A stretch of 31,310 nt of DNA. It comes from a virus. The position numbers were made by a program, and so were the translations under genes. The stretch lies in the IMG/VR virus record IMGVR_UViG_3300030090_001388, positions 1-31,310 of that record. One strand, written 5' to 3'. Positions within the stretch are counted from its first letter, which is position 1. Each line of letters opens with the position of its first letter. Below the pieces are notes generated by a model that saw only the letters and a program-made list of their open reading frames with translations, had not been told where the DNA came from and ran no database searches. Shown piece by piece: positions 725-29,908 of the stretch.

Positions 725-1236
725 TGACTAAATTTTTAAAAAAAACACTTGGTTGGTTCAATCAAAAAGACAGCATAAACTCTAGCTGGACTGACAGAGC
801 AAGGCTTGTAGAAATACATACTATTGATGTTTTGGAAGATCCCGTTAGGCCTGAGCTGGATTTGGAATGGAGAAAGGCATTCGGCAGAAAGATATTTGGA
901 CTTCAATGTGAGGATGAAATCCTAGCGGTTGTGTGTTTAGCGTTTACAAACGACGTGCCTCATTCGGTTCGTGAGCTGGATCTCATGAGCAGGGTTAGTC
1001 AATATGAGAAAAATGCAATGATCGCTATCGCCTACACGGTTTGGTCCGAGAAAAAGGGCGCTGGAAAAAAGATAATGGAGGAGGTTATTGAATACGCGAG
1101 AGCAAAGGGCTTTAAAAGGCTGGTAACTTTATCTCCTCTAACCCCAACAGCCACCCATTACCACATCAGAAATGAGGCTAGGCTTATAGGACTTAACGCC
1201 TCTACCCAAAATTTCGAGTACAGGTTAAAAGATTAA
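724..1236 (+). CDS. GNAT-type N-acetyltransferase-like protein
   Basis: The 170-residue product has a GNAT-like acetyl-CoA binding segment at about residues 104-121, with the loop EKKGAGKKI corresponding to the family's R/Q-x-x-G-x-G/A turn followed by a helix. A later KRLVTLSPLTPTATHYHIRN segment fits beta strand 5 and the helix of the fold. Similar small GNAT-like proteins are common in marine phages. The substrate is unknown; it could modify a host protein or a small molecule. It starts on the last base of the previous stop codon (TAATG) and ends the same way into the next gene, so it belongs to a tight plus-strand operon of at least four genes. The N-terminal 50 residues are not clearly part of the GNAT fold. 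Confidence 0.7.
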   Translation: MTKFLKKTLGWFNQKDSINSSWTDRARLVEIHTIDVLEDPVRPELDLEWRKAFGRKIFGLQCEDEILAVVCLAFTNDVPHSVRELDLMSRVSQYEKNAMIAIAYTVWSEKKGAGKKIMEEVIEYARAKGFKRLVTLSPLTPTATHYHIRNEARLIGLNASTQNFEYRLKD

Positions 1237-1673
1237 TGACTTCCAGACCTATATACGAGAAAAGCTCAGATATCTCCAATGAGGAGCTTGTCGCTGAGAA
1301 GCTCTCAAAGATATGGGACTTTGATAGCTGGCAGAGAAATCCTCCACGATATCCAATAGATATTTCTCTAATGAAGGATAGACATATCAAGGCATTCGCG
1401 GAGATCAAATGCAGAAATGTGGACATCGACACCTATAGCACCTATTTACTTTCTGTGGGAAAGGTCATGTCGGCACACTCACTCACAAAGGCTACCGGTC
1501 TTCCGTGTTTTCTGGTTGTTCAATGGATAAACTGCCTTGGCTGGATAGACCTTGAAACAATCGAGCCTTTGTATGTTGGATGGGGAGGACGGATAGACAG
1601 GCGGGACTCCCAAGATATGGAGCCGGTGATGCATTACGATTTAAGCCAGTTTAAACGAGTGGAGAACAAATGA
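1236..1673 (+). CDS. PD-(D/E)XK nuclease-like protein
   Basis: The 145-residue protein has the layout of a small PD-(D/E)XK nuclease. An N-terminal helix with E17 is followed by D42 in the strand PIDISLM and then the E56-x-K58 motif in AEIKCRN. The sequence after it (STYLLSVGKVMSAHSL, then LPCFLVVQW) fits the helix and the last core strand. In phages this fold serves Holliday-junction resolvases, recombination exonucleases and restriction-like enzymes; which applies here cannot be said. It is translationally coupled on both sides (TAATG upstream, ATGA overlap downstream at 1670-1673). The codons for QF-KR near its end contain one copy of the GTTTAAAC palindrome (1649-1656). Confidence 0.65.
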   Translation: MTSRPIYEKSSDISNEELVAEKLSKIWDFDSWQRNPPRYPIDISLMKDRHIKAFAEIKCRNVDIDTYSTYLLSVGKVMSAHSLTKATGLPCFLVVQWINCLGWIDLETIEPLYVGWGGRIDRRDSQDMEPVMHYDLSQFKRVENK

Positions 1674-1932: not shown

Positions 1933-3720
1933 TTAAATATTAAGTGTGTAGACTTGCAACGGATCTGACTGACCCTTAACAGTAATGGTCTCAACATAAC
2001 GAACCATGTCAGGAACCTTCTTTGCGGTTGGCTCCCCGATAAGAACAGGAACTTCTCCCCTCTTGATCAGCCCCCTAGTTTTTCCCTCCAATCTGGCGGC
2101 GGTATTTACCGTATGGCCCACCACAGAATAGTCAAAACGCTTTTCTGATCCCATGTTTCCGACCACACAAAGGCCCGTATTGATTCCAATGCCCACGTTT
2201 AAACGCTCTATTCCTTCCTCTTCCAGCTCATCATTCAAGAATTTAAGCGCAATTAGCATGTCTCTGGCGGTACAAACGGCTTTTTCCTCGTGGTCATCAC
2301 AGTCAAGCGGAGCATTCCACAGCAAAAAAAGACAGTCTCCGATGTACTTATCCACTGTTGCTCCATTGTTAAGAGCAACGTCTGTAAGGCTTGTCAGGGC
2401 TTTGTTCATAATCCAGACCAATTTCTGAGGATCGTCCTGTAGGCTCTCAGAGAGCGGTGTGAAGCCGACCAGATCACAGAAGAGGAACGTCATCTCTTTT
2501 GTTTCACCGCCTAACACGAGCTTAGAGGGGTCATCCTGTAGCTGTTTCACCAGATCAGGGGAGACATAGGTCCCGAATTGACCCTTGATCTGCATTTTTA
2601 GCCTGTATTCAGTCAGCATTCTCTGGAAAACCCCTGCACCTCCTACCGTCAGGGCAGAAAGCACCGGTAATGAGGCATCTAACAGCATTCCAAACCTTAA
2701 ATACGCCCAAACTGACGAGATTGCCGTTAGAGAGGAGATCGTAAGAATGCCTATCGCCACCCCATAAACAGGCAGAAAACGCGCTGAAAGCGCAGCTAAG
2801 AGAGCCAAAATCAGTAAGACTAGCGTTTCAGCAGCTAATGACCAGTCTGGTCTGACTGGAGAAGAGCCACTCAGGAGAGTCTCAAGAAGATTAGCTTGAA
2901 TCTGATGCGGGAAGAGCTGACCGATGGGAGTTGGAACCAATGGACTTATTCCTGCTGCTGTTACTCCAACGTAAACAATCTTGTTTTCTACATTCTGTTT
3001 AAACGTTGTGTTCCAATCAATCCAAATCCTGCCTGCCGAATCTGTCTGGATCGTGTCATAGGCTGGAATCCTAACCGCTTCGATCCCTGACTCTCCTGCT
3101 CTGACCTGATAACTGGGATCACCTGCCAGACCTCGCAAAACATCCACAGACAGTGCCGGGTATAGCTGCCCCTGCACATTGATCAGGGTCGGAATTCTCC
3201 TCACCAGACCATCTACTTCGGGCGCTGCATTTACTACGCCGGTTCCTGTGGATGCCTCTTGTAATGCTTGAACATTCGGGAGAATACCGCTGTATTGCAT
3301 CGCATTCTCAAGAACAGGCCCCATCGTGGCTACGCCTATATCCCATCCATCACGCCGGTCCGTGTCTGTGGTAGCTACCGCAGAAAGAAAAGTTGGAATT
3401 TCACGCATACTTAAAGCAAATTCTCCATCCTGAAGAAACCGATCCGGCTCAGGAAAAAGAACAGAATAGACAACAGCAATAGCGCCTCTTTCAGCAAGCT
3501 CAGTGTTTAAACTTGCTAAGTAAGAACGAGGCCAAGGCCACTGACCTTTTTCTTCAAGTGCTGCCTCATCAATGTTGTATAAAGCTATAAGTTCGCTGTC
3601 TCTGTCCTCTTGAGAAGTTAAAAGAACATCAAAGTATTTAAGCCTGATTGTTTCTACGGGCCAAGGATCAAAAACTCTGATTGCAACAACAAAGACAATA
3701 ATAGGAATAAGCAGCTTCAT
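1933..3720 (-). CDS. CHASE2-domain class III adenylate cyclase (membrane sensor)
   Basis: The 595-residue membrane protein has an N-terminal transmembrane helix (about 3-17) and an extracytoplasmic CHASE2 sensor domain (about 25-285) with family features such as QWPWPR, then GVVNAAPEVDGLVRRIP. Three transmembrane helices follow (about 297-314, 318-340 and 349-368), then a cytoplasmic class III cyclase domain (about 405-590). Catalytic residues are intact: metal-binding D416 (FCDLVGFT) and D462 (YIGD), purine-selecting K458 and D530, and transition-state N539 and R543 (VNTAARLEG). The K/D pair predicts ATP rather than GTP as substrate, so it should make cAMP. The length is normal for the family, so it appears functional. 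Its ATG shares a base with the TGA of the preceding phage gene (TGATG), so it is translationally coupled into the late operon. Three GTTTAAAC copies lie within it (2197, 2997, 3505). Confidence 0.92.
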   Translation of the reverse strand: MKLLIPIIVFVVAIRVFDPWPVETIRLKYFDVLLTSQEDRDSELIALYNIDEAALEEKGQWPWPRSYLASLNTELAERGAIAVVYSVLFPEPDRFLQDGEFALSMREIPTFLSAVATTDTDRRDGWDIGVATMGPVLENAMQYSGILPNVQALQEASTGTGVVNAAPEVDGLVRRIPTLINVQGQLYPALSVDVLRGLAGDPSYQVRAGESGIEAVRIPAYDTIQTDSAGRIWIDWNTTFKQNVENKIVYVGVTAAGISPLVPTPIGQLFPHQIQANLLETLLSGSSPVRPDWSLAAETLVLLILALLAALSARFLPVYGVAIGILTISSLTAISSVWAYLRFGMLLDASLPVLSALTVGGAGVFQRMLTEYRLKMQIKGQFGTYVSPDLVKQLQDDPSKLVLGGETKEMTFLFCDLVGFTPLSESLQDDPQKLVWIMNKALTSLTDVALNNGATVDKYIGDCLFLLWNAPLDCDDHEEKAVCTARDMLIALKFLNDELEEEGIERLNVGIGINTGLCVVGNMGSEKRFDYSVVGHTVNTAARLEGKTRGLIKRGEVPVLIGEPTAKKVPDMVRYVETITVKGQSDPLQVYTLNI

Positions 3721-3986
3721 CAGTGAATATCAAATTCCCAACAATGAATCACAGCATTCCACGGAATAATCATTGGAGTATTAAAGATTGTTTCGTCTTT
3801 GTCGTAAAGATCGGTAGCGAGAATGATGCATTCTTCAGTTGAAGCAATGGCATAGCCAATGGTTGAACGGATAACAGGAGATAATTCTGCTATATCCTTA
3901 ATTGGAAAGTCTTTTGCCTCTATCCATGCATCCTCCCAAATAACCTCAGTAATTGGATGCCTGTTTTTATTAACATCTTCTACCAT
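3720..3986 (-). CDS. Small conserved phage-type protein, function unknown
   Basis: The 88-residue acidic protein has the pattern VIWEDAW near the N-terminus, then TIGYAIASTEECIILATDLYD and IIPWNAVIHC. This resembles a small protein often seen in tailed phages in which a 'W-x-D' strand is followed by a 'vGyl..t.d.i.la.s' strand pair and a 'IP...I' end; I know of no assigned function. Its start overlaps the preceding gene by 7 nt, and its stop overlaps the start of the cyclase gene. It marks phage backbone between the curli module and the cyclase. Confidence 0.65.
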   Translation of the reverse strand: MVEDVNKNRHPITEVIWEDAWIEAKDFPIKDIAELSPVIRSTIGYAIASTEECIILATDLYDKDETIFNTPMIIPWNAVIHCWEFDIH

Positions 3987-4285
3987 TTGACTTTATCTGC
4001 CCAATAAGCTGCTGACATTTTACCTTTCTTTATATTCTTACCATGTCTAGCTTTAAAAGATTTGCGTCTAGCTTTTTGTTTTTTTGATTCGCCTTTTTTT
4101 GGCTTACCCGCAGTCTTGACTCCCTGCTGCCCAAACCGAATCGTCTTAACCTTATCGCCTTCTTTAGCAACCACAACGTGAGATTTCTTGGGATGACTGG
4201 GGGTTCTCTTGGGCTTGTTAAAACCAGCAACACCGGCCCTTGCTAAACGCGGGTCTTTTTTGCTCTTACGCTTTTTTTCGGGCAT
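3980..4285 (-). CDS. Basic DUF6321-like phage protein
   Basis: The 101-residue, strongly basic protein contains the segments RLARAGVAGFNKPKRTPSHP, KSHVVVAKEGDKVKTIRFGQ and RRKSFKARHGKNIKKGKMSA, ending AAYWADKVKW. I recognise this as the small basic family listed as DUF6321, which is found widely in phages of aquatic bacteria. Its function is not known; the charge suggests nucleic-acid binding or a virion-associated role. A clear Shine-Dalgarno (AGAGGA) precedes the ATG, and the gene overlaps the upstream one by 20 nt. The family name is from memory and should be checked with a profile search. Confidence 0.8.
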   Translation of the reverse strand: MPEKKRKSKKDPRLARAGVAGFNKPKRTPSHPKKSHVVVAKEGDKVKTIRFGQQGVKTAGKPKKGESKKQKARRKSFKARHGKNIKKGKMSAAYWADKVKW

Positions 4286-4523
4286 TTTTAGTCCTCTTGA
4301 ATGATCTGTTCTTAGACTTGGATGTTACCTTGAGGTTGCTGGCTTTTTTGTTTTTAGGATTACCATCTCTGTGATGCACATCCTTTCCGTCTCCCTTGGA
4401 AACCTTACCCTTCTTCTTCATTGTGGCACGACTAGCGTTCCTAGAAGCACGTCTTTTCTTCTGCTTCTTCTTGCCCTGATAATTGTCGTATTCCTTGCGG
4501 TAATTTCGTTTTTTCTTTGGCAT
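4266..4523 (-). CDS. Small basic HNH-like phage protein
   Basis: The 85-residue protein is dominated by Lys and Arg and carries an HNH-like core, GKDVHHRDGNPKNKKASNLK, at about residues 46-65: two adjacent histidines, then Asn residues and a terminal NL. The core is followed by VTSKSKNRSF. HNH endonucleases use this arrangement, but the protein is very short and lacks visible zinc-binding cysteines, so it may be a reduced DNA-binding relative rather than an active nuclease. The same gene commonly lies beside the DUF6321 gene in marine phages, in my recollection. An AGAGG Shine-Dalgarno is placed normally. It follows the second curlin-like gene by 8 nt. Confidence 0.75.
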   Translation of the reverse strand: MPKKKRNYRKEYDNYQGKKKQKKRRASRNASRATMKKKGKVSKGDGKDVHHRDGNPKNKKASNLKVTSKSKNRSFKRTKNARKKA

Positions 4524-4531
4524 CTTGACCT

Positions 4532-5317
4532 CTAATCAAACTGATTTACTGTAACCGTTTTATTACAGCTTGATGTGCAATCAAGCGTTACTGTGTAATT
4601 CTTTACGTCGGTCCCGGTTTGTGTTGCATTTACTGTGTAATTTCCTTGTTTCACAAGTATATTGCCAACGTGTGCGCCATCACCACTTTGCGTTAAGTTG
4701 ACCGTGGAGTTGTCAGCAGGATTGTTTCTGAATTCAATATCCCCATCCTTTGCGCCGCTGCCTGATTGAGTGATCGTGGCATCATTGTTATTGCAGTTAC
4801 CACAGCTTTTAATATAGGCATTGTGATTACCACTACCTGATTGCGTGGCAGTCCATGTGCTGTCATCCCCAAAGGCATAGAATTTGGCGTAATGATTTCC
4901 GCTCCCGGTCTGACTGATTGTATACACGTTGTCATCGCCAGACATATAAATTTCACCATGCTTATCGTTACCAACCTGAGTAACAGTCATCTCGTTTGAG
5001 TCTTGGTCAGCGTCAATGTAGCCAGTGTTATCGTTACCCGTCTGTGTGATCGTATACTCATTGCCAGTGTGATTGGTGTACTGACTATAGGCTTTAGCTA
5101 AATTATCATCGCCATTCTGGTCAATATCTATTTCGGCACTAGAACAAGTATGGGTTGTAAACGTACCGTTGCTCAATCCGCACCACACACGAGCGGTATT
5201 ACCGGTGCCTATTTGGTCTATGTAAATGCTGGTATTAGTGCCTTTTGTGTCTATTTCCACAGAGTTGTTAGCAGCAAAAACGGAGAAACTAGTTAGACTG
5301 ATTAATATAAATCGCAT
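4532..5317 (-). CDS. Curlin-like amyloid repeat protein (CsgA-like), long form
   Basis: This 261-residue secreted protein has a signal peptide (MRFILISLTSFSVFA) and then about nine to ten imperfect repeats of 20-30 residues with the curlin core Q-x-G-x-[GD]-N, for example QIGTGN (35-40), QTGNDN (92-97), QTGSGN (136-141) and QSGSGN (159-164). E. coli CsgA has five repeats, so this would build a longer beta-solenoid subunit. The start at 5317 is chosen over an in-frame ATG at 5332 because a strong Shine-Dalgarno, GGGGGAGG, sits 5 nt upstream and the signal peptide begins there. It overlaps the fecR-like gene by 29 nt. Unusually for a curlin it holds six cysteines, C46/C58, C172/C175 and C247/C251. 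It is the likely major fibre subunit exported by the CsgG/CsgF pair. Confidence 0.85.
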   Translation of the reverse strand: MRFILISLTSFSVFAANNSVEIDTKGTNTSIYIDQIGTGNTARVWCGLSNGTFTTHTCSSAEIDIDQNGDDNLAKAYSQYTNHTGNEYTITQTGNDNTGYIDADQDSNEMTVTQVGNDKHGEIYMSGDDNVYTISQTGSGNHYAKFYAFGDDSTWTATQSGSGNHNAYIKSCGNCNNNDATITQSGSGAKDGDIEFRNNPADNSTVNLTQSGDGAHVGNILVKQGNYTVNATQTGTDVKNYTVTLDCTSSCNKTVTVNQFD

Positions 5318-6368
5318 TATCGCCTCCCCCATTTACTTCTGCCTGTATCTTCACGCCAGCAGTCATTATATCTATCTTATAGGGAGAGCCTTTGTCTAGT
5401 TCTAGGTCAATCGTATTTTCTACATTTCTTACAAAAAACAAGCTAGGCCCGTCTGTAAAGGTGTACACCTGTAACTGTTGGTCAAAGCCGGGAATCACGC
5501 CTTCAATTTCTACACCATCCATCTCATAGACTTTCGCTTGCTTTCTTGACTCAGAGACTTGAACCAGAAGATCGCCAAGGAAATCGACTGCCAGTAAGTC
5601 AATGTCTAATCGCCCCATATCTTCTTCAAGCGCATCTTCATCGAGTTCGTTGTCTTCCAGCGCATCTTCTTCGAGTAAATCCACATCGAGAATATTAGAA
5701 GCTGTGCCACTTTGCTCGTCCACCGCCTCTTGAATTTCATCGGGAGGGCTGACGATTAACAAGTTATTGAGGAAGTTCATGGTCATCCCTTGGAGAATGA
5801 CCGGCGGGGTAGGGGGAGACTCAGAGACAGTGACCGCAGTCGCCTGCCACGGCTCATTCATAACTACCTCGCCAGCCATTGAAGTGACCACTATTTCGCC
5901 GCTAGCTTCACCATTCTCATCAGGCAACAAGATAACCATCGTCTCGCCAATTTCAGATACATGGGTCGTGAACTCCGTCCCACGAATCGCGACGGTGGCT
6001 ACTGGAGTCCTGATAGAAACATTCTCTCTATTGATACGGCCTAGCGCACCTGTCAAAAATCTAGCCGTTCCAGAGGCCATATTGAGAGCTAGACGAGACT
6101 GTGATGGGTCAGGATCAAACACAAAGTCATCAATAACGATGCTGGAACGCTCAGTCAGGCTTACAGTGCTGTCATCTAGGAATGTAATGGATAACCTGCC
6201 GTTACCAGTTCTGACATTATCCATGCTGGCAATACCAAGCTCTAACGCAGCAACTAAGGAATCATCAGAGTCCTCACGAAGCACCTCACCGATGCCGCGT
6301 AGCTCAGAAATAGATCCAACTTGAGCGTTAGCTACAATCGGCAGGAATATCAGCAGCCACTTACACAT
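5289..6368 (-). CDS. FecR-domain periplasmic protein with curlin-like C-terminus
   Basis: The 359-residue protein has a signal peptide (MCKWLLIFLPIVANA) and a FecR domain at about 50-150, recognised from NVRTGNGRLSITFLDDSTV and SIRTPVATVAIRGTEFT. There is no transmembrane helix after the signal peptide, so it is predicted to be periplasmic or exported rather than a membrane anti-sigma factor. A Leu/Asp/Glu-rich repeat segment lies at 227-258. The last 11 residues, DNAIYINQSN preceded by Gly, resemble the first strand of the neighbouring curlin-like protein (NNSIYLTQSG), which suggests that it docks to or templates the fibre. FecR proteins of this type are commonly encoded beside CHASE2-cyclases in bacteria. 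It overlaps the curlin genes on both sides (19 and 29 nt). Confidence 0.85.
   Translation of the reverse strand: MCKWLLIFLPIVANAQVGSISELRGIGEVLREDSDDSLVAALELGIASMDNVRTGNGRLSITFLDDSTVSLTERSSIVIDDFVFDPDPSQSRLALNMASGTARFLTGALGRINRENVSIRTPVATVAIRGTEFTTHVSEIGETMVILLPDENGEASGEIVVTSMAGEVVMNEPWQATAVTVSESPPTPPVILQGMTMNFLNNLLIVSPPDEIQEAVDEQSGTASNILDVDLLEEDALEDNELDEDALEEDMGRLDIDLLAVDFLGDLLVQVSESRKQAKVYEMDGVEIEGVIPGFDQQLQVYTFTDGPSLFFVRNVENTIDLELDKGSPYKIDIMTAGVKIQAEVNGGGDNAIYINQSN
5323..5330 (-). promoter_or_regulatory. Strong Shine-Dalgarno for the long curlin gene
   Basis: On the minus strand GGGGGAGG is followed by a 5-nt spacer and ATG at 5317. It lies inside the 3' end of the fecR-like gene. It decides the start of the curlin gene, and it is among the strongest ribosome sites in the window, which fits high production of a structural subunit. 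Confidence 0.75.
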
Positions 6369-7063
6369 TGATCAATATCAATTACACCGCCAGTTGTCAC
6401 AGCTATTATGTCAACAATCCCGCTGGTTGATCCAGATGCGTGGGTCTGGTCTATGTCGATATTGTTCGTTGACCCCGTAATGTCTGCCGTGATGCTACTT
6501 GATGCATTTCCGGTCTGAGTTGTATCTATATCGTTACTTGAGCCGTCCACATCCCAGTTATTCACACCACTCACCACCTCACTTACGATGTTGAGATTGT
6601 TGCTCGTTCCGGTCACTACGATGTCTGTATTGCCGCTGGTTGCCGTAGCTGCTGCGCCTTGCGTATAGCTCAATACATTTGAATCGCCGGTAGCAGCAAA
6701 GTCAAAATCAGTGGATTGCACATCACCAGACGCACCTAGCGCCAATGTCTGAGTATTGGAATCACCTGTGCTTCTCAAAGTAAAACTGGCAGAGTTAGCC
6801 TGTGCCGCCGTCATCGCAATAGTGTTGCTATCGCCAATCTGATCTATATCAGCCGTAAGCGAAGTACCTGTAAGAGAGACCCTTGCGCTGGTGGTTCCAA
6901 CCACGTTGGAGTTGCCTATCTGGTCGATATTAAGGGTCAGGGCTGTCGAGCCGCCAGATTGAGTCAGATATATGCTGTTGTTGGCAGCATTAGCTGAAAT
7001 GAAATAGGCAAGTGAATACAAAAGAAACAAGTAAACAAAGCAGCTTTTAATCAGTAATCTCAT
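6350..7063 (-). CDS. Curlin-like repeat protein, short divergent form (possible nucleator)
   Basis: The 237-residue protein starts with a long signal peptide (MRLLIKSCFVYLFLLYSLAY, cleavage near ANA-ANN) and then NNSIYLTQSGG. Repeats of about 23-27 residues follow, with cores QIGNSN (48-53), QIGDSN (75-80), STGDSN (98-103), ATGDSN (124-129), VTGTSN (150-155) and VDGSSN (172-177). The central repeats have lost the glutamine of the curlin consensus, so it may be a nucleator (CsgB-like) or minor subunit rather than the main fibre; that assignment is inference. It ends in a cysteine pair (C233, C237). The start at 7063 is chosen because AAGGAGGT lies 5 nt upstream and the ATG overlaps the csgG stop (ATGA). 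Confidence 0.8.
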   Translation of the reverse strand: MRLLIKSCFVYLFLLYSLAYFISANAANNSIYLTQSGGSTALTLNIDQIGNSNVVGTTSARVSLTGTSLTADIDQIGDSNTIAMTAAQANSASFTLRSTGDSNTQTLALGASGDVQSTDFDFAATGDSNVLSYTQGAAATATSGNTDIVVTGTSNNLNIVSEVVSGVNNWDVDGSSNDIDTTQTGNASSSITADITGSTNNIDIDQTHASGSTSGIVDIIAVTTGGVIDIDQCVSGC

Positions 7064-7875
7064 TCTGAACCTCCTTGTGGGGTATAGTCCCACATATCCT
7101 GCTGAATGCCTTGATGCACCAGTTCCAGAACTGCCGCTTCAATGGCACTTCTAACTGCATAGGTCGCAGTCTCGTTTCTGGCAGCCCCTGCTTCTATCTC
7201 AACGAGTTCAGTTCCGCCAGTTTCTGTAAATATAAAGGTATCAAAGTTTGTCGCCGTTGAATATATCTGCTTACTAGTGATCACATTCAACAACACCTGT
7301 CCCGTTTGAACGAGAACGGCTCTCAGAGACACGGTAACCTCATCCACTCGGTACTGTGCGCTTGCACCTATACCCAAATAACGCGCCCCTGCACCGCCAC
7401 TTAGAAGGTTTGTATCGTAGCCAATAATCCCGCCTGCGAGTATCAATCCTGAAAACAATAGTGGCTCTAGTTCATTAGCGCCCTCTCCATCATAATTGTT
7501 ACGGGTTGAGATAATTAACTGCCGTTCTCTGGTCAAAACGTCAAGATTTGCGCGTTCTGCAACCAAAAACCACGTACCGTTTCCGGCTGACATTAAGGCG
7601 TCAATCAGAAAAGAATCCGCCCCCTGAGTTACGGCAGTTGAAAACAATGCCATGTTATCGGCTGTAGCACGTTGACCTGTTTGATCTGCAAAAGAATAGA
7701 CACTCACTACAGCCTTTTGACGAGGCATCGGCAAGTTCTGAAGATCAGTCAGAGTTGGTCTTTCTACCCGTGGCTCTGGTGAGCAGTAATTACTTAAAGT
7801 GCCGCATGTATACGGGTCAACGCTAACGCACCCTGAGACTAAGAGTCCCATAGCACATAAAGTTAGAGAGCGCAC
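7060..7875 (-). CDS. csgG: CsgG-like outer-membrane curli secretion lipoprotein
   Basis: The 271-residue protein matches CsgG in length (277 in E. coli) and through its whole body: lipobox LVSGC with C16 as the lipid-bearing residue, then VVSVYSFADQTGQ (56-68), FSTAVTQGA (78-86), ERANLDVLTRERQLI (107-121), GGIIGYDTNLLSGGAGARYL (148-167) and DEVTVSLRAVLVQTGQVL (178-195). CsgG forms a nonameric outer-membrane channel for unfolded curlins. In the constriction loop the Phe before STAV is retained (F78), but the E. coli Tyr and Asn positions appear to be Asp or Asn and Leu here, so gating may differ. The start is a GTG without a clear Shine-Dalgarno, overlapping csgF by 13 nt, so translation probably depends on csgF. 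An extra cysteine pair (C24, C31) follows the lipobox. Confidence 0.93.
   Translation of the reverse strand: MRSLTLCAMGLLVSGCVSVDPYTCGTLSNYCSPEPRVERPTLTDLQNLPMPRQKAVVSVYSFADQTGQRATADNMALFSTAVTQGADSFLIDALMSAGNGTWFLVAERANLDVLTRERQLIISTRNNYDGEGANELEPLLFSGLILAGGIIGYDTNLLSGGAGARYLGIGASAQYRVDEVTVSLRAVLVQTGQVLLNVITSKQIYSTATNFDTFIFTETGGTELVEIEAGAARNETATYAVRSAIEAAVLELVHQGIQQDMWDYTPQGGSE
7069..7076 (-). promoter_or_regulatory. Consensus Shine-Dalgarno AAGGAGGT before the first curlin gene
   Basis: AAGGAGGT on the minus strand is 5 nt from the ATG at 7063 and lies in the last codons of csgG. It fixes the start of the curlin gene ten codons inside the longest open frame and predicts much stronger initiation than at csgG, whose GTG start has no clear ribosome site. 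Export channel and subunit would thus be made in unequal amounts. Confidence 0.75.
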
Positions 7876-8333
7876 TCGTCTGTACTACAGATGCCAAATG
7901 ATCCGACAGGTATGCGGATCTCCGTAATTCCTCCGTCAAGGTCAGTCACTAAAAGAACAATCTCTGTGCCCGTATTAACGAAACTAATTTGATTTCCCTG
8001 AAGATCAAATACTCCACCGGAACCACCACTCTCGCTATTGAAAAGAGAGTTAGCTAAATCCTGTGAAAGTTGAGCAAAGATGCGGCTTTCAAGGTTTCTG
8101 ACGAACTTAGCTAAAGTAGTATTTTCCTCTGCTCGAAGTATATCTTCTGCCTTGGATTCAAGTTCATCCAGTATTTCAGCTTTACGGGTTCTTTCCTGCT
8201 CATCAATCGTTAAATAATGCGCAGACTGACCAAACCCACTAAAAGAAGGGTTACTGAAGGTGAAAACCAGATCGGTTGCTTTGGCTGGAACTGCAAACAG
8301 GCTAATCGTTATTAACATCAACCACTTTTTCAT
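7863..8333 (-). CDS. csgF: CsgF-like curli secretion and assembly accessory protein
   Basis: The 156-residue protein has a signal peptide (MKKWLMLITISLFAVPAKA) and the CsgF N-terminal signature TDLVFTFSNPSFSG. In E. coli this segment plugs the CsgG channel, and the rest of CsgF forms a cap at the cell surface that couples secretion to nucleation. The middle contains a charged helix (about 44-75) and the C-terminal half strands such as GTEIVLLVTDLDGGITEIRI. It is slightly longer than E. coli CsgF (138) and ends with a cysteine pair (C149, C154). The AGGGAG ribosome site lies inside the preceding holin-like gene, and the two coding regions overlap by 32 nt, so the curli module is fitted closely to the phage lysis genes. 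No csgE is found next to it. Confidence 0.88.
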   Translation of the reverse strand: MKKWLMLITISLFAVPAKATDLVFTFSNPSFSGFGQSAHYLTIDEQERTRKAEILDELESKAEDILRAEENTTLAKFVRNLESRIFAQLSQDLANSLFNSESGGSGGVFDLQGNQISFVNTGTEIVLLVTDLDGGITEIRIPVGSFGICSTDECAL

Positions 8334-8565
8334 CTTTCTGCTCCCTTAGCTCAATCACCGTGTCAAGTTTCTGCTGTAACCGTATGATGTCATTATCAAG
8401 CATACGACATCTGTCTATGAGTTTAATCAACGTGACGTTAGCCTCTGCCAGTTTTGTCTTAATATTATTGGTTATAAAGTTCCAGATAAAATGGATCATG
8501 TACAGCAGACCGACAGTCGCTACTATCGGAAAACCGTACTCGCTGATTGCTGCGGCTACATCCAT
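8302..8565 (-). CDS. Small membrane protein with coiled coil, holin-like
   Basis: The 87-residue protein has one N-terminal transmembrane helix (about 11-32, GFPIVATVGLLYMIHFIWNF) followed by an amphipathic, coiled-coil-like tail with the phrase CRMLDNDIIRLQQ. The pattern repeats that of the preceding gene (FPI plus hydrophobic helix, then MNHDIVRLD), so the two look like paralogues. They sit next to endolysin and spanin genes, so a holin or pinholin partner role is likely, but this rests on position and topology. Its 3' end overlaps csgF by 32 nt. Confidence 0.65.
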   Translation of the reverse strand: MDVAAAISEYGFPIVATVGLLYMIHFIWNFITNNIKTKLAEANVTLIKLIDRCRMLDNDIIRLQQKLDTVIELREQKDEKVVDVNND

Positions 8566-8846
8566 TAATCTCTTCTTGCATCTTCTTTCCCATCGGCTCT
8601 GGCAATTCTGTTCAGATCGGGCCTGATCCCAAGAACACTACACATTGTTGCATCAAGCCTAACAATATCATGATTCATGGTTTTTACTCTATTATCAAGA
8701 GCTTGGACAATGCCATGTATTCCGTTGACCTGACCTATAACCGATTCTAAGATGTACTTGATCGTCAGGAATATGAAAAATCCTGCAATCAACGCAATAG
8801 CAATCGGGAACCCAACGTCACCGATCAGGGCAAAAGCCTCGTTCAT
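8565..8846 (-). CDS. Small membrane protein, holin-like (paralogue of the following gene)
   Basis: The 93-residue protein has a single predicted transmembrane helix (about 10-33, GFPIAIALIAGFFIFLTIKY) and a cytoplasmic tail with a predicted coiled coil (NRVKTMNHDIVRLDATM). BhlA-type phage holins share this one-helix plus charged-tail design. It overlaps the upstream gene by 4 nt (ATGA) and the downstream paralogue by 1 nt (TAATG). The duplicate pair may act as a holin and a regulator, which is inference. Confidence 0.65.
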   Translation of the reverse strand: MNEAFALIGDVGFPIAIALIAGFFIFLTIKYILESVIGQVNGIHGIVQALDNRVKTMNHDIVRLDATMCSVLGIRPDLNRIARADGKEDARRD

Positions 8847-9154
8847 TCTTCCTCGCCCTTAAACTTCTTGGATTGCCCAGAGGTTCCAGCGTAAATTCCA
8901 AAGACAGCGCCCATAGCTCCAACAATTATAGAGACCAAGCCAGCCTGCTCCAGATTAGGCTCTTCCAAGGTCATAAACCACAGGACAACCTCATAAACAA
9001 GATAGATGTATACGCCCACAAAGATTCTCGGAAAAATTCTCCATGCATCAACAGTTCTCGCTAGATGTATCCACCGTTGATAAGGATTTACCCCTATGTT
9101 GTTAGGGGTGACTTCTACCTCAAGATCAATTTTCTTTTTTATTGGTTCATCCAT
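8843..9154 (-). CDS. Two-helix membrane protein, candidate holin
   Basis: The 103-residue protein has a charged N-terminus and two hydrophobic helices, about 45-62 (FVGVYIYLVYEVVLWFM) and 74-92 (GLVSIIVGAMGAVFGIYAG), separated by the short acidic loop EEPNLEQA. This shape and loop are familiar from small membrane proteins in the lysis region of marine podoviruses, where they are usually called holins. With the two genes downstream there are three small membrane proteins in a row, and which one makes the lethal hole cannot be decided from sequence. Confidence 0.65.
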   Translation of the reverse strand: MDEPIKKKIDLEVEVTPNNIGVNPYQRWIHLARTVDAWRIFPRIFVGVYIYLVYEVVLWFMTLEEPNLEQAGLVSIIVGAMGAVFGIYAGTSGQSKKFKGEEE

Positions 9155-9156
9155 AG

Positions 9157-9546
9157 CTACTCTTCCTCTTGATCTCTCGTTGGATCATTATCACGATAAT
9201 ACTTAATGATGTTTAAACTCTGTCTGATATACCGCCTAATATCGGCTAGGTTATTCGCTAGGTTTTCATAGGCTTGAGAGGTAAGCGCATAGTAAGCCAG
9301 AGCAGGTGCATTACCCTCATCGTAATTATCAATGTATTCCCTCATCACACTCGGATTAAGGACTACCCACTCTATTTCAGCAGGATTAACCGCTTCAGGA
9401 AGTGTGGGATGATACATGGGAGCCGGTTCTGTAATAGTGACAATCTCTACCGGAGCTACTTCCGGCACAGCCGGAGGATCACTAAACAGATTGCCTAAAG
9501 TAGAACAACCACTAAGAAAAACACTACTCAGTAACAGGTACTTCAT
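9157..9546 (-). CDS. Lipoprotein in lysis cassette, candidate outer-membrane spanin (Rz1-like)
   Basis: The 129-residue protein has a lipoprotein signal (MKYLLLSSVFLSGC, C14 as the lipidation site), a Pro/Val-rich linker (about 24-55), and a helical C-terminal domain containing VVLNPSVMREYIDN and NNLADIRRYIRQSLNIIKYY. Its start overlaps the upstream Rz-like gene by 23 nt in another frame, the usual layout of inner and outer spanins. It is longer than classical Rz1 (about 60 residues), so it may be a different lysis lipoprotein. It contains one GTTTAAAC copy (9211-9218). Confidence 0.6.
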   Translation of the reverse strand: MKYLLLSSVFLSGCSTLGNLFSDPPAVPEVAPVEIVTITEPAPMYHPTLPEAVNPAEIEWVVLNPSVMREYIDNYDEGNAPALAYYALTSQAYENLANNLADIRRYIRQSLNIIKYYRDNDPTRDQEEE

Positions 9547-9943
9547 CGAATTGCCTTGGGTTAGTTAGATCAACGAACTGTTGGTGTACCTGTGCAGTAC
9601 CTCGGTTTACAACTCCCTCAATAAGTCCCGGACGGGCGATAGCAAGGTTATTGAGATCATGTCGAGCAAAGGTGTTGCGCATCTCAGAGACCTCCTGACG
9701 AGCCTCATCATTAGCCTCGGTTAGCTCTGTAATCCTTAACTGATTTTCTCGTTGGGCTTGTAGCTGCTCTTCTAGCTGAGTATTTTGCTGAGAAATAGTA
9801 TTCTCAAGAACTTCCTGATTATTAACTGAGGTTTGAAGCTCTACCTGAAGTTGCCCTATTTGAGCTTTCTGCATATTGATATAAAAGTAACTGCCTCCAG
9901 CAGTAGCGATTAACAAAAAACCTAGAGCAATACTAAGATTCAT
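9524..9943 (-). CDS. Rz-like inner-membrane spanin
   Basis: The 139-residue protein has an N-terminal membrane anchor (about 3-23), a long Gln/Glu-rich coiled coil (about 26-95) and a conserved-looking C-terminal block, FARHDLNNLAIARPGLIEGV followed by NRGTAQVHQQFVDLT. This is the organisation of Rz-type i-spanins, which link the inner membrane to an outer-membrane lipoprotein and fuse the membranes at lysis. Its 3' end overlaps the lipoprotein gene, and it follows the endolysin gene by about 100 nt. Confidence 0.72.
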   Translation of the reverse strand: MNLSIALGFLLIATAGGSYFYINMQKAQIGQLQVELQTSVNNQEVLENTISQQNTQLEEQLQAQRENQLRITELTEANDEARQEVSEMRNTFARHDLNNLAIARPGLIEGVVNRGTAQVHQQFVDLTNPRQFDEVPVTE

Positions 9944-10041: not shown

Positions 10042-10482
10042 CTACTCAATATATCTACCAGTTCTTATCATTTCAGTCAGCGTTTTAGCCCTGTTCCCAA
10101 CCTGAGAGGACCATCTTGAATCAAGAAACTCATCAGCAGCCGCTCTCCAATTTTTACTAGCCATTGCCGCAAGAGCATTTTTAAAAGCTCTTAAACGTGT
10201 TTGACCAAGATTAAAGCTGATATCAATCATTGCATCTTGCCTAACCGAATCAAGGTCGGAAAACCATGAATACTCTGAGTCAAGCTCAACATAAACCCTA
10301 TCTATATCATTTTGCAGAAGATAATCTATCTCATCTTCGGATAGACCAATGCCGCCTTCAGGATCTATATTTCTTCCCACGCCAACAGTGATCTTGGATG
10401 CACTGCATTTATAAGCATGGGATTCGACTCCCTCATGTATCTTGAGCATTTTTATTAATTTGCTTGAAGTTTTATCGTTCAT
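10042..10482 (-). CDS. GH24 (T4-type) endolysin
   Basis: The 146-residue protein is a T4-lysozyme family muramidase that cleaves peptidoglycan at lysis. The catalytic triad follows the E-x8-C/D-x5-T pattern: E17 (HEG), C26 (AYKC) and T32 (ITVGVGRN), so the middle residue is Cys rather than Asp, a known variant in the family. Later motifs DAMIDISFNLG and FKNALAAMASKNWRAAADEF fit the C-terminal lobe. No signal peptide or anchor is present, so it needs a holin. Its start overlaps the giant gene's stop by 4 nt (ATGA). A GGGA-type ribosome site lies upstream. Confidence 0.93.
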   Translation of the reverse strand: MNDKTSSKLIKMLKIHEGVESHAYKCSASKITVGVGRNIDPEGGIGLSEDEIDYLLQNDIDRVYVELDSEYSWFSDLDSVRQDAMIDISFNLGQTRLRAFKNALAAMASKNWRAAADEFLDSRWSSQVGNRAKTLTEMIRTGRYIE

Positions 10483-29212: not shown

Positions 29213-29908
29213 CTAAGCAGCTAAGTCTGTATTCCAAACGTTAAGGTTTGCAGCAACCGTCCTTCTTTCTCCCGGCCCTTCAAACGGATAGACCATGTGC
29301 TGAAGCCAGCTAGGAAATAAATACAGCTTGCCAACCTGTGGCTGTAACGAAGTGGATTGAGGTGGACATAAACGCTCTACATCCATCAAAGAATTTTTAC
29401 CATATTGAAAGCATAAGTACCCATCACAAGCCCCACTAGAATTGTAAAGGCTATAATTTGGTGTGCCTGCTGTTGGCTGATCCAGTATTTGCTGTGGAAC
29501 CTTTGTCCAAGTTGTTATTGAGATTCCCATTATCGTTTTAGTTCCATGATCATGAATAGGGTTATAGTCCCTTTCAAAAGAATGAACCGACCAAAGCTCA
29601 TCGACCTCAACTTTTCTGGTTCCAGTAAGCATATTTCCAGTCTGTTGACCAAAATGTTTAAGATACTCAATGCCAAGACCGCAGATTAGATCAGAAAACT
29701 CCTTTAACTCAGGAACTTCGTGATTCATCGTCAACTGCTGTCCGTGCTTAATCTGACCCACCAGAGTTCCTGCATGGGAGCGACGTTCCTCGCTCTCAAG
29801 CAACTCATCAAGATACTGATTTAGATTAACCACCATCTCGCTTGGCAGGTCTGTCTCCAGCATAAATGCTGCTGGCAATGTCCAGATATTGACGTTTATA
29901 TCAGCCAT
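29213..29908 (-). CDS. 2-oxoglutarate/Fe(II)-dependent oxygenase-like protein
   Basis: The 231-residue protein fits the double-stranded beta-helix oxygenases found in many marine phages (2OG-FeII_Oxy_5-like). Candidate iron ligands are H119 and H121 in NPIHDHG and H204 in WLQHMVYPF; R215 or R216 in GERRTVAANL is placed to bind 2-oxoglutarate. KLYLFPSWLQH is the typical strand before the distal His. Such enzymes hydroxylate proteins, nucleotides or small molecules; the substrate here is unknown. The position within the tail genes suggests modification of a virion protein or a role late in infection. It is coupled to the upstream gene by TAATG. Confidence 0.82.
   Translation of the reverse strand: MADINVNIWTLPAAFMLETDLPSEMVVNLNQYLDELLESEERRSHAGTLVGQIKHGQQLTMNHEVPELKEFSDLICGLGIEYLKHFGQQTGNMLTGTRKVEVDELWSVHSFERDYNPIHDHGTKTIMGISITTWTKVPQQILDQPTAGTPNYSLYNSSGACDGYLCFQYGKNSLMDVERLCPPQSTSLQPQVGKLYLFPSWLQHMVYPFEGPGERRTVAANLNVWNTDLAA

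Follow-up and report, generated by a model that had tools for sequence, protein, structure and literature searches.

A phage-borne type VIII (curli) secretion module among lysis genes, with a FecR-domain protein that appears to end in a curlin strand

Introduction

Genes of the type VIII secretion system (T8SS), known from the Escherichia coli curli genes csgBAC-csgDEFG, have been described in several ocean phages. csgF and csgG were reported in pelagimyophages, where the term 'sibling capture' was coined (PMC7029224, 2020), and the longer order csgF-csgG-csgA/B-FecR-csgA/B-cyclase, assigned an alphaproteobacterial origin, was reported in pelagipodophages and myophages (PMC9599517, 2022). The module genes of phages are transcribed in metatranscriptomes, and viral curli proteins were found at all 65 GOV2.0 stations (PMC9599517). 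Here, a further carrier is described: the virus record IMGVR_UViG_3300030090_001388 from IMG/VR, a 31310-base genome fragment of an uncultured phage (the whole stretch is referred to as the window), with csgF, csgG, two curlin genes and a FecR-domain gene on the minus strand at 4532-8333 and a CHASE2 cyclase gene beyond them. The first-pass annotation of this DNA had considered the full arrangement with FecR and cyclase unrecorded, but it is published in PMC9599517 and is present in HTVC008M and Melnitz. The module is thus already known from ocean phages; what is new is the C-terminal tail of the FecR protein, which appears to carry a curlin strand motif, together with the FecR-CHASE2 pairing, a pair of membrane proteins without kinase matches, a phage lineage of higher guanine-plus-cytosine (G+C) content and a module in Hyphomonas.

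The gene order csgF-csgG-csgA/B-FecR-(csgA/B)-(AC, the cyclase) is shared by the window and the pelagiphage T8SS module of HTVC023P-type podophages and pelagimyophages, and the two are alike in having one or two preceding genes and in the lack of CsgC, CsgD and CsgE, none of which is reported in the passages on that module (PMC9599517). In contrast to that module, the window represents another podophage of higher G+C content, the module follows directly after lysozyme, spanin and holin candidate genes, and three small open reading frames (ORFs) precede the cyclase gene. HTVC008M and the OM43 phage Melnitz carry the same module with FecR, two curlins and the cyclase, and their CsgG proteins are 43-46% identical to that of the window. 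Unlike the window, both are Kyanoviridae records without a lysozyme or spanin match within about 9 kb on either side, though in Melnitz a gene for a cell wall hydrolase is located some 8 kb upstream of the module. CsgG, CsgF and curlin repeats are shared with E. coli curli, to which the phage module adds FecR, the CHASE2 cyclase and the membrane pair, while no CsgE match was found (16 records). FecR-CHASE2 operons of Proteobacteria, such as the Burkholderia BiofilmReg operon, also resemble the window in that an exported FecR-domain protein adjoins a CHASE2 membrane signalling protein; in Burkholderia, however, the CHASE2 protein is a histidine kinase, FecR carries LysM, and the passages on the operon describe no curli genes (PMC5192318).

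Genes of the module and their distribution

Bounds given below are those of the longest ORFs, and genes with their true starts may be shorter.

7863..8333, minus strand: csgF (PF10614, E = 4.3e-18; phrog_35372, 2.5e-34)
7060..7875, minus strand: csgG, lipoprotein pore with Cys16 (PF03783, 3.6e-48)
6350..7093, minus strand: curlin 1 (PF07012, 4.6e-4; AlphaFold2 beta-solenoid)
5289..6368, minus strand: FecR-domain protein (PF04773, 5.1e-11; phrog_37870, 2.8e-72; C-terminal NAIYINQ, residues 351-357)
4532..5332, minus strand: curlin 2 (PF07012, 6.4e-13, five repeats)
1933..3720, minus strand: CHASE2-domain class III nucleotide cyclase (PF05226, 1.2e-36; PF00211, 3.6e-17)

The first five of these had been placed after the lysis genes as an overlapping set on one strand, and family matches and ORF coordinates confirm this, each ORF from csgF to curlin 2 overlapping its neighbour. 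The components that define type VIII secretion, a CsgG pore lipoprotein, CsgF and curlin-repeat substrates, are all present as family matches, with curlin 1 marginal. CsgG matches the solved E. coli pore 3x2r along its length (E = 9.4e-42), and its lipid-attachment residue C16 is shared by all 19 of the diverse phage copies compared. Curlin 1 falls a shade below the Pfam cut-off (20.5 against 20.7 bits), and its AlphaFold2 model, made with 25 relatives, is a beta-solenoid with a mean predicted local distance difference test score (pLDDT) of 86.6. A Foldseek search of this model against the PDB recovered no solved curli fibre (best E 0.15). Export signals were judged by eye to be present on both curlins and on the FecR-fold protein, and neither CsgC nor CsgD was matched among the scanned window proteins. 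The matches to CsgG, CsgF, curlin and FecR, taken with the lysis neighbours, support the proposal of a curli-type export module within a phage late region, and by its gene content the locus is a phage-borne type VIII secretion module placed among late and lysis genes.

A CsgG scan of viral contigs in IMG/VR matched 444 stretches, 439 of which encode a relative, and the best 80 loci were kept; with HTVC008M, Melnitz, the window and a copy of the window these make up 84 sources. The numbers of matching ORFs were 84 for CsgG, 82 for CsgF, 81 for curlin 1, 77 for TM93, 74 for FecR, 72 for TM87, 54 for the cyclase and 47 for curlin 2, counts limited by the many contigs that end within the module and by some second curlins being overlooked. 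The core order is alike in most loci up to the contig end, in podophage and myophage types. One locus, L083, deviates: its membrane pair follows FecR, and its cyclase is encoded on the opposite strand. A CsgG relative (39% identity) was also seen in OR851715.1, a 1499-base record of Salmonella phage S.Kent 1-2-1, perhaps a host fragment.

The profile search for csg genes in other phages that had been suggested as a check thus found the same gene order in many separate viral contigs. That the module in the window is an assembly chimera or bacterial contamination is extremely improbable. The G+C content of 1933-8333 (45.5%, against 42.2% in the remainder of the window) would fit such an origin, but spanins, membrane pair and csg genes share one contig in L008, L010, L013, L014, L016, L019 and L231, and the module is present in the cultured phages HTVC008M and Melnitz. 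A chimera is refuted by this recurrence of synteny across separate viral contigs.

The FecR-domain protein

The FecR-domain protein looks to be exported and to end in the strand motif of curlin (I-x-I-x-Q), a feature newly recognised here. No mention of it was found in the literature, as judged by titles and abstract openings and by passages of the cited curli papers. The protein is made up of a signal peptide (by eye), the FecR domain, an acidic linker of low model confidence (about 200-277), a small beta domain (280-345) and the terminal segment. The window tail, N-A-I-Y-I-N-Q, has what we take to be the spacing of the curlin kernel, the meanings of the kernel symbols being partly assumed. 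The kernel is given as N-$-Y1-$-Y2-$-Q (PMC10192328). In the protein modelled alone, pLDDT is <50 in nine of the last ten residues, and Q357 is found in all 32 non-redundant FecR sequences, with I353 and I355 in at least 90%. A tail of low pLDDT with an invariant Q357 fits a segment that folds upon a partner.

The tail was described by the expression [IV]x[IVN]xQx{0,3} at the C-terminal end, which was composed after the first tails were inspected and matches all 50 distinct FecR sequences of the first set. Among the curlins, it matches 27 of 31 copies of curlin 2 and 8 of 54 of curlin 1 (52 of 54 under a looser form), and it is absent from CsgG (0/58), CsgF (0/55), TM93 (0/47), TM87 (0/44) and the cyclases (0/39). 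Eight of 490 other ORFs also match, but six of these are second curlins overlooked by the search, leaving a background of 2 in 484, and elsewhere in FecR the tail core occurs 7 times over about 18,300 positions. A fresh set was drawn from FecR ORFs on contigs fetched with TM93 (53 ORFs, from which 8 cut by a contig end and the first-set copies were dropped). The unchanged expression matches all 34 distinct new copies, which have a median similarity ratio of 0.46 to their closest counterparts in the first set. It also matches FecR from 4 of 4 phage contigs found in metagenome-assembled genomes (MAGs). A bacterial FecR-tail control gave 0 of 32, though this control is weak, since many of its ORFs are truncated at the edge of the locus and represent different FecR proteins. 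The fresh set firms up the tail motif and tells nothing about the partner of the tail.

In the window, the stretch encoding the tail is shared with the beginning of curlin 2. The tail does not depend on such an overlap, as it is retained where the genes do not overlap, in L022, L026 and L060. The overlap control scores some FecR genes as 'none' where the second curlin is unrecognised (e.g. L018), and only these three loci are relied on. Curlin subunits dock via beta-sheet (strand) augmentation (PMC10192328), and a single strand of curlin type borne on a flexible tail would therefore be a natural curlin-binding element.

Two other roles can be considered for this protein. Regulators of the FecR anti-sigma or iron-dicitrate type consist of a cytoplasmic anti-sigma domain, one membrane helix and a periplasmic FecR domain. 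Iron-responsive regulation of the module by FecR, through a relay of the FecA-FecR-FecI type, was proposed in PMC9599517. The FecR domain and fold are certainly genuine (PF04773; the domain model aligns with the PupR cell-surface signalling domain, 6ovk, at Z 15.4 over 137 residues, rmsd, the root-mean-square deviation, 2.6). However, the FecR domain comes shortly after an N-terminal signal peptide (by eye), and no other domain reaches the cut-off, so that the protein departs from the regulator layout in having no cytoplasmic anti-sigma part matched in the domain scan. Its C-terminus is a curlin strand, its gene adjoins that of the CHASE2 cyclase in a pairing that is common without curli, and no sigma-factor or TonB-receptor ORF was seen in the window, the only record searched for them. 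An iron regulator is accordingly considered quite unlikely.

Alternatively, FecR could be a surface anchor or nucleator comparable to CsgB, which leaves the cell, seeds or caps the fibre with its tail and is kept at the outer membrane by its FecR domain. The end motif shared with curlin is in keeping with this, as is the alignment of FecR model residues 14-112 with 5ix9 (Z 7.3 over 72 residues, rmsd 1.6; Foldseek E 1e-2), a cell surface anchoring domain deposited as an antifreeze protein. 5ix9 was also the one weak match of the FecR profile to PDB sequences (E 0.26). A Z value <8 may, though, reflect merely a common arrangement, the common occurrence of a CHASE2 partner speaks for a periplasmic location, and a folded FecR domain would need passage through CsgG. 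This role is judged rather unlikely and is not the one favoured.

FecR and the CHASE2 cyclase

A periplasmic adaptor that binds curlin, the role preferred here, is in line with the neighbouring cyclase gene. Residues D416, D462 and R543 of the cyclase are found in 29 of 29 sequences and K458 and N539 in 28 of 29; these are the two metal-binding Asp and the Lys, Asn and Arg of the class III active site. At position 536, which is not one of the active-site residues, the window cyclase has His (H536), in contrast to the Asp of 27 of 29 relatives.

In the class to which Hyphomonas belongs, 142 of 385 genomes contain FecR-type matches, and 67 of those 142 contain CHASE2 matches. Among the matches listed, FecR and CHASE2 are no more than 6 kb apart in at least 18 of 50 genomes with both, against 1.2 expected, where the 6-kb limit was chosen after viewing, the genomes lack independence and the 18 include the Hyphomonas that carries the module. 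A direct neighbour check of 59 fetched loci found both in 5, the loci being too short to inform. A FecR/LysM protein and a CHASE2 kinase also occur together in the Burkholderia biofilm operon (PMC5192318). As the two genes frequently lie close together in the Hyphomonas class, the pair is better read as a periplasmic sensor unit than as an iron switch. This half of the module, FecR with the cyclase, thus resembles a pre-existing periplasmic signalling pair that in phages has gained a curlin strand.

In quick trees, the cyclase of the window groups with those of L054, L056 and L059, and its CsgG with those of L005, L019 and L009; the module seems mosaic within the podophage lineage.

The membrane pair and the lysis cassette

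The features on either side of the core genes are as follows, with matching ORFs counted among the 84 sources.

10042..10482, minus strand: phage lysozyme of the lysis cassette (PF00959, E = 3.8e-13)
9524..9943, minus strand: inner-membrane spanin-like (Rz) gene (phrog_739, Rz-like spanin, 3.7e-11)
9157..9546, minus strand: outer-membrane spanin-like (Rz1) gene overlapping the Rz-like gene (phrog_812, Rz-like spanin, 2.4e-13; lipobox-like LSGC)
8843..9154, minus strand: TM103, small membrane protein, holin candidate (phrog_10198, function unknown, 1.2e-19)
8565..8846, minus strand: TM93, first gene of the pair before csgF (phrog_18771, 1.3e-28; 77 matching ORFs)
8302..8565, minus strand: TM87, TM93 paralogue overlapping csgF (phrog_18771, 1.8e-25; 72 matching ORFs)
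4266..4523, minus strand: HNH-like small ORF, outside the core (PF13392, 5.9e-6; 3 matching ORFs)
3980..4285, minus strand: small ORF, outside the core (phrog_7595, 3e-42; 7 matching ORFs)
3720..3986, minus strand: small ORF of unknown function, outside the core (8 matching ORFs)

The minus-strand order is therefore a 3105-amino-acid (aa) ORF, lysozyme, the two spanin-like genes, TM103, TM93, TM87, csgF, csgG and curlin 1, followed on the same strand by FecR, curlin 2, the HNH-like ORF, the two small ORFs and the cyclase. Head and tail genes and the 3105-aa ORF lie upstream of the lysozyme gene. Rfam and tRNA scans of the window gave no match.

TM93 and TM87 are paralogous small membrane proteins of 93 and 87 aa, each with a coiled coil, and TM93 consists of a hydrophobic helix and the coiled coil with a C-terminal RRD. 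Together they hold the position before csgF in nearly all loci examined. The gene or genes at this position have been called histidine kinases (PMC9599517). None of 18 TM93/TM87 members matched a kinase family at E<=0.1, and the data do not support the histidine-kinase label for the genes before csgF, the correspondence to the published kinases being by gene position only. TM87 has a weak holin match (phrog_4898, 6.2e-4), and TM103 is a candidate holin by its position and hydrophobic stretches.

Among the best 80 matches listed in a TM93 scan of viral contigs, 71 loci include csgF or csgG, 5 end too soon and 4 are without csg genes. The arrangement TM103-TM93-TM87-spanin-lysozyme-terminase, with no csg gene, represents a natural module-free version of the cassette and was found in three loci.

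L190:324-4040: csg-free lysis cassette
L196:3774-7490: csg-free lysis cassette
L201:3914-7823: csg-free lysis cassette

These are close relatives (lysozymes 0.93-0.97 alike) and so count as one case, not three. L178 was dropped as a csg-free locus, its contig ending right after TM87. In L009, L011, L054, L056 and L059, the csg module is located between the membrane genes and the spanins. As the pair is found in csg-free lysis cassettes and the module sits amid membrane genes and spanins, it is probable that TM93/TM87 is an element of phage lysis and that the module has become attached to it; the same association is seen in myophages.

These arrangements bear on the proposal that the pore has a role in lysis (PMC9004378, 2022), which in its strict form would mean that only CsgG/CsgF matters, opening or depolarising the envelope and so timing lysis. 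In the podophage lineage of the window, the module is located within the lysis cassette or next to it, the TM93/TM87 pair also occurs in the csg-free cassettes, and the Melnitz hydrolase gene is about 8 kb upstream. Curlins and the curlin-tailed FecR are, however, retained across several lineages, including Melnitz and HTVC008M, and a mere pore would need neither. A role for the pore alone is thus judged unlikely.

Phage lineage and other genes of the window

The 610-aa head protein of the window is nearest to those of podophages and other phages (DSL-LC04, Roseobacter CRP-901/902, HTVC027P and HTVC023P, 31-40% identity). The G+C content is 42.9% in the window and 40.4-53.2% in 15 close relatives (L004-L017, L019), compared with 33.5% in the HTVC008M stretch and 36.7% in that of Melnitz; of the other 65 loci, 54 are <40% and 11 >40%. 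Because the G+C of this lineage is above that of most other carriers, the host is probably not SAR11 or OM43.

The 3105-aa ORF (19796-10479, minus strand) has no Pfam match at E<=0.01, and its last 999 residues gave one weak match in 50,697 phage records (Manatee Spring phage, 24% identity). A 2OG-Fe(II) oxygenase gene (29213-29908; PF13759) is found among the structural genes, and a phage PDDEXK endonuclease family match (1236-1673, plus strand; PF24579, 3.8e-35) is transcribed toward the late region.

Bacterial relatives

For comparison, 80 CsgG loci were kept from bacterial genome contigs. Five of these, L085-L089, have a module of the phage type together with the TM pair; they come from MAGs of Sphingobacteriales, Saprospirales, Synechococcus and Rhodobacteraceae and are probably phage contigs binned into bacterial MAGs. 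A further 74 have no FecR match, though some contigs are short. The remaining locus, L084:9465-15488, is in a 705-kb contig of Hyphomonas sp. TMED17 and contains csgF-csgG-curlin-FecR-cyclase without the TM pair, flanked by ordinary metabolic neighbour genes (by eye). FecR and the cyclase were stated not to be within bacterial T8SS operons in the relevant passage of PMC9599517; L084, in contrast, is a bacterial curli cluster with both.

The L084 FecR is the best match in its class (E 3.7e-72, the next being 1.5e-37, in 385 genomes) and the sole match at E<=1e-35 among 398 genomes of its order. In quick trees, its CsgG and cyclase are placed beside L022, L074 and L078 within the viral group (support 97 and 99), on a long branch. 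Hyphomonas sp. TMED17 was dropped as a simple donor of the phage module, since both proteins nest inside the viral group. The placement hints at exchange between phages and Hyphomonas and would fit a phage-to-bacterium direction, but a purely viral clade is not rejected by the approximately unbiased test (p 0.157).

A model for the module

The model proposed here, to which we assign an even chance, is that curlin amyloid is exported late in infection, that FecR is a curlin-binding adaptor linking curlin to the cyclase, and that the membrane pair ties the module to lysis. Late in infection, curlin would be exported via CsgG/CsgF to form surface amyloid. FecR would act outside the cytoplasm, where its acidic linker and terminal strand may pair with curlin by strand augmentation, and its FecR domain may report to the CHASE2 domain of the cyclase, such that curlin load or assembly would alter cyclic AMP (cAMP). 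FecR may double as a periplasmic escort or cap, a part suggested by the failure to find CsgE. The TM93/TM87 pair would couple the module to lysis. In the weakest step, a supposed benefit, the amyloid would alter the dying cell's surface or its surroundings, to hold cells or exclude other phages. The benefits put forward in the first-pass annotation, namely that the amyloid may tie cells together, exclude rivals or coat virions or that the pore may help lysis, are likewise putative.

Several observations weigh against this model. Both the FecR-curlin and the FecR-CHASE2 contacts are putative, and the window is a fragment from an uncultured phage. CsgE was matched in 0 of 16 phage records, the window included, although several records are fragments and the control detects E. 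coli only; it is present in 41,090 of 43,279 CsgA-bearing genomes (PMC10192328) and has been called non-essential (PMC7029224). A scan for a cAMP-binding protein likewise gave 0 of 16 phage records, so that any cAMP effect would need a host receptor. The window and its shuffles were similar in promoter (17 against 15.3 expected) and terminator scans (7 against 6.7), and as these signals are not above those of the shuffles, the late timing is taken from gene order alone. The Hyphomonas L084 FecR, the sole bacterial one of this type, lacks the tail Gln and ends in SVFILE. The nearest experimental hint points away from clumping, which the authors did not see in Melnitz cultures, and Melnitz was said to be without csgA/csgB (PMC9004378). 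The Melnitz-3 GenBank record (L003:8989-14706), however, lists two proteins with curlin repeats, one with a FecR domain and a cyclase. With the full module in that record, the absence of clumping in the cultures speaks against the module acting by simple sibling capture.

A more specific version is speculative and on balance improbable. In it, FecR would be an amyloid-gated signalling adaptor whose terminal strand docks on curlin that has been exported or is awaiting export; with CHASE2, it would convert the progress of amyloid export into a change in cAMP and so couple assembly to the late programme or lysis. No system is known to us in which fibre assembly is signalled to a cyclase by way of an amyloid strand carried on a sensor, and none was found in a literature search of titles and abstract openings.

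The module occurs widely among ocean phages, with 439 stretches encoding CsgG in a single scan of viral contigs. A specific and testable mechanism for it is provided by the tail of FecR and the pairing of FecR with CHASE2, and its occurrence in podophages of higher G+C content suggests hosts beyond SAR11 and OM43.

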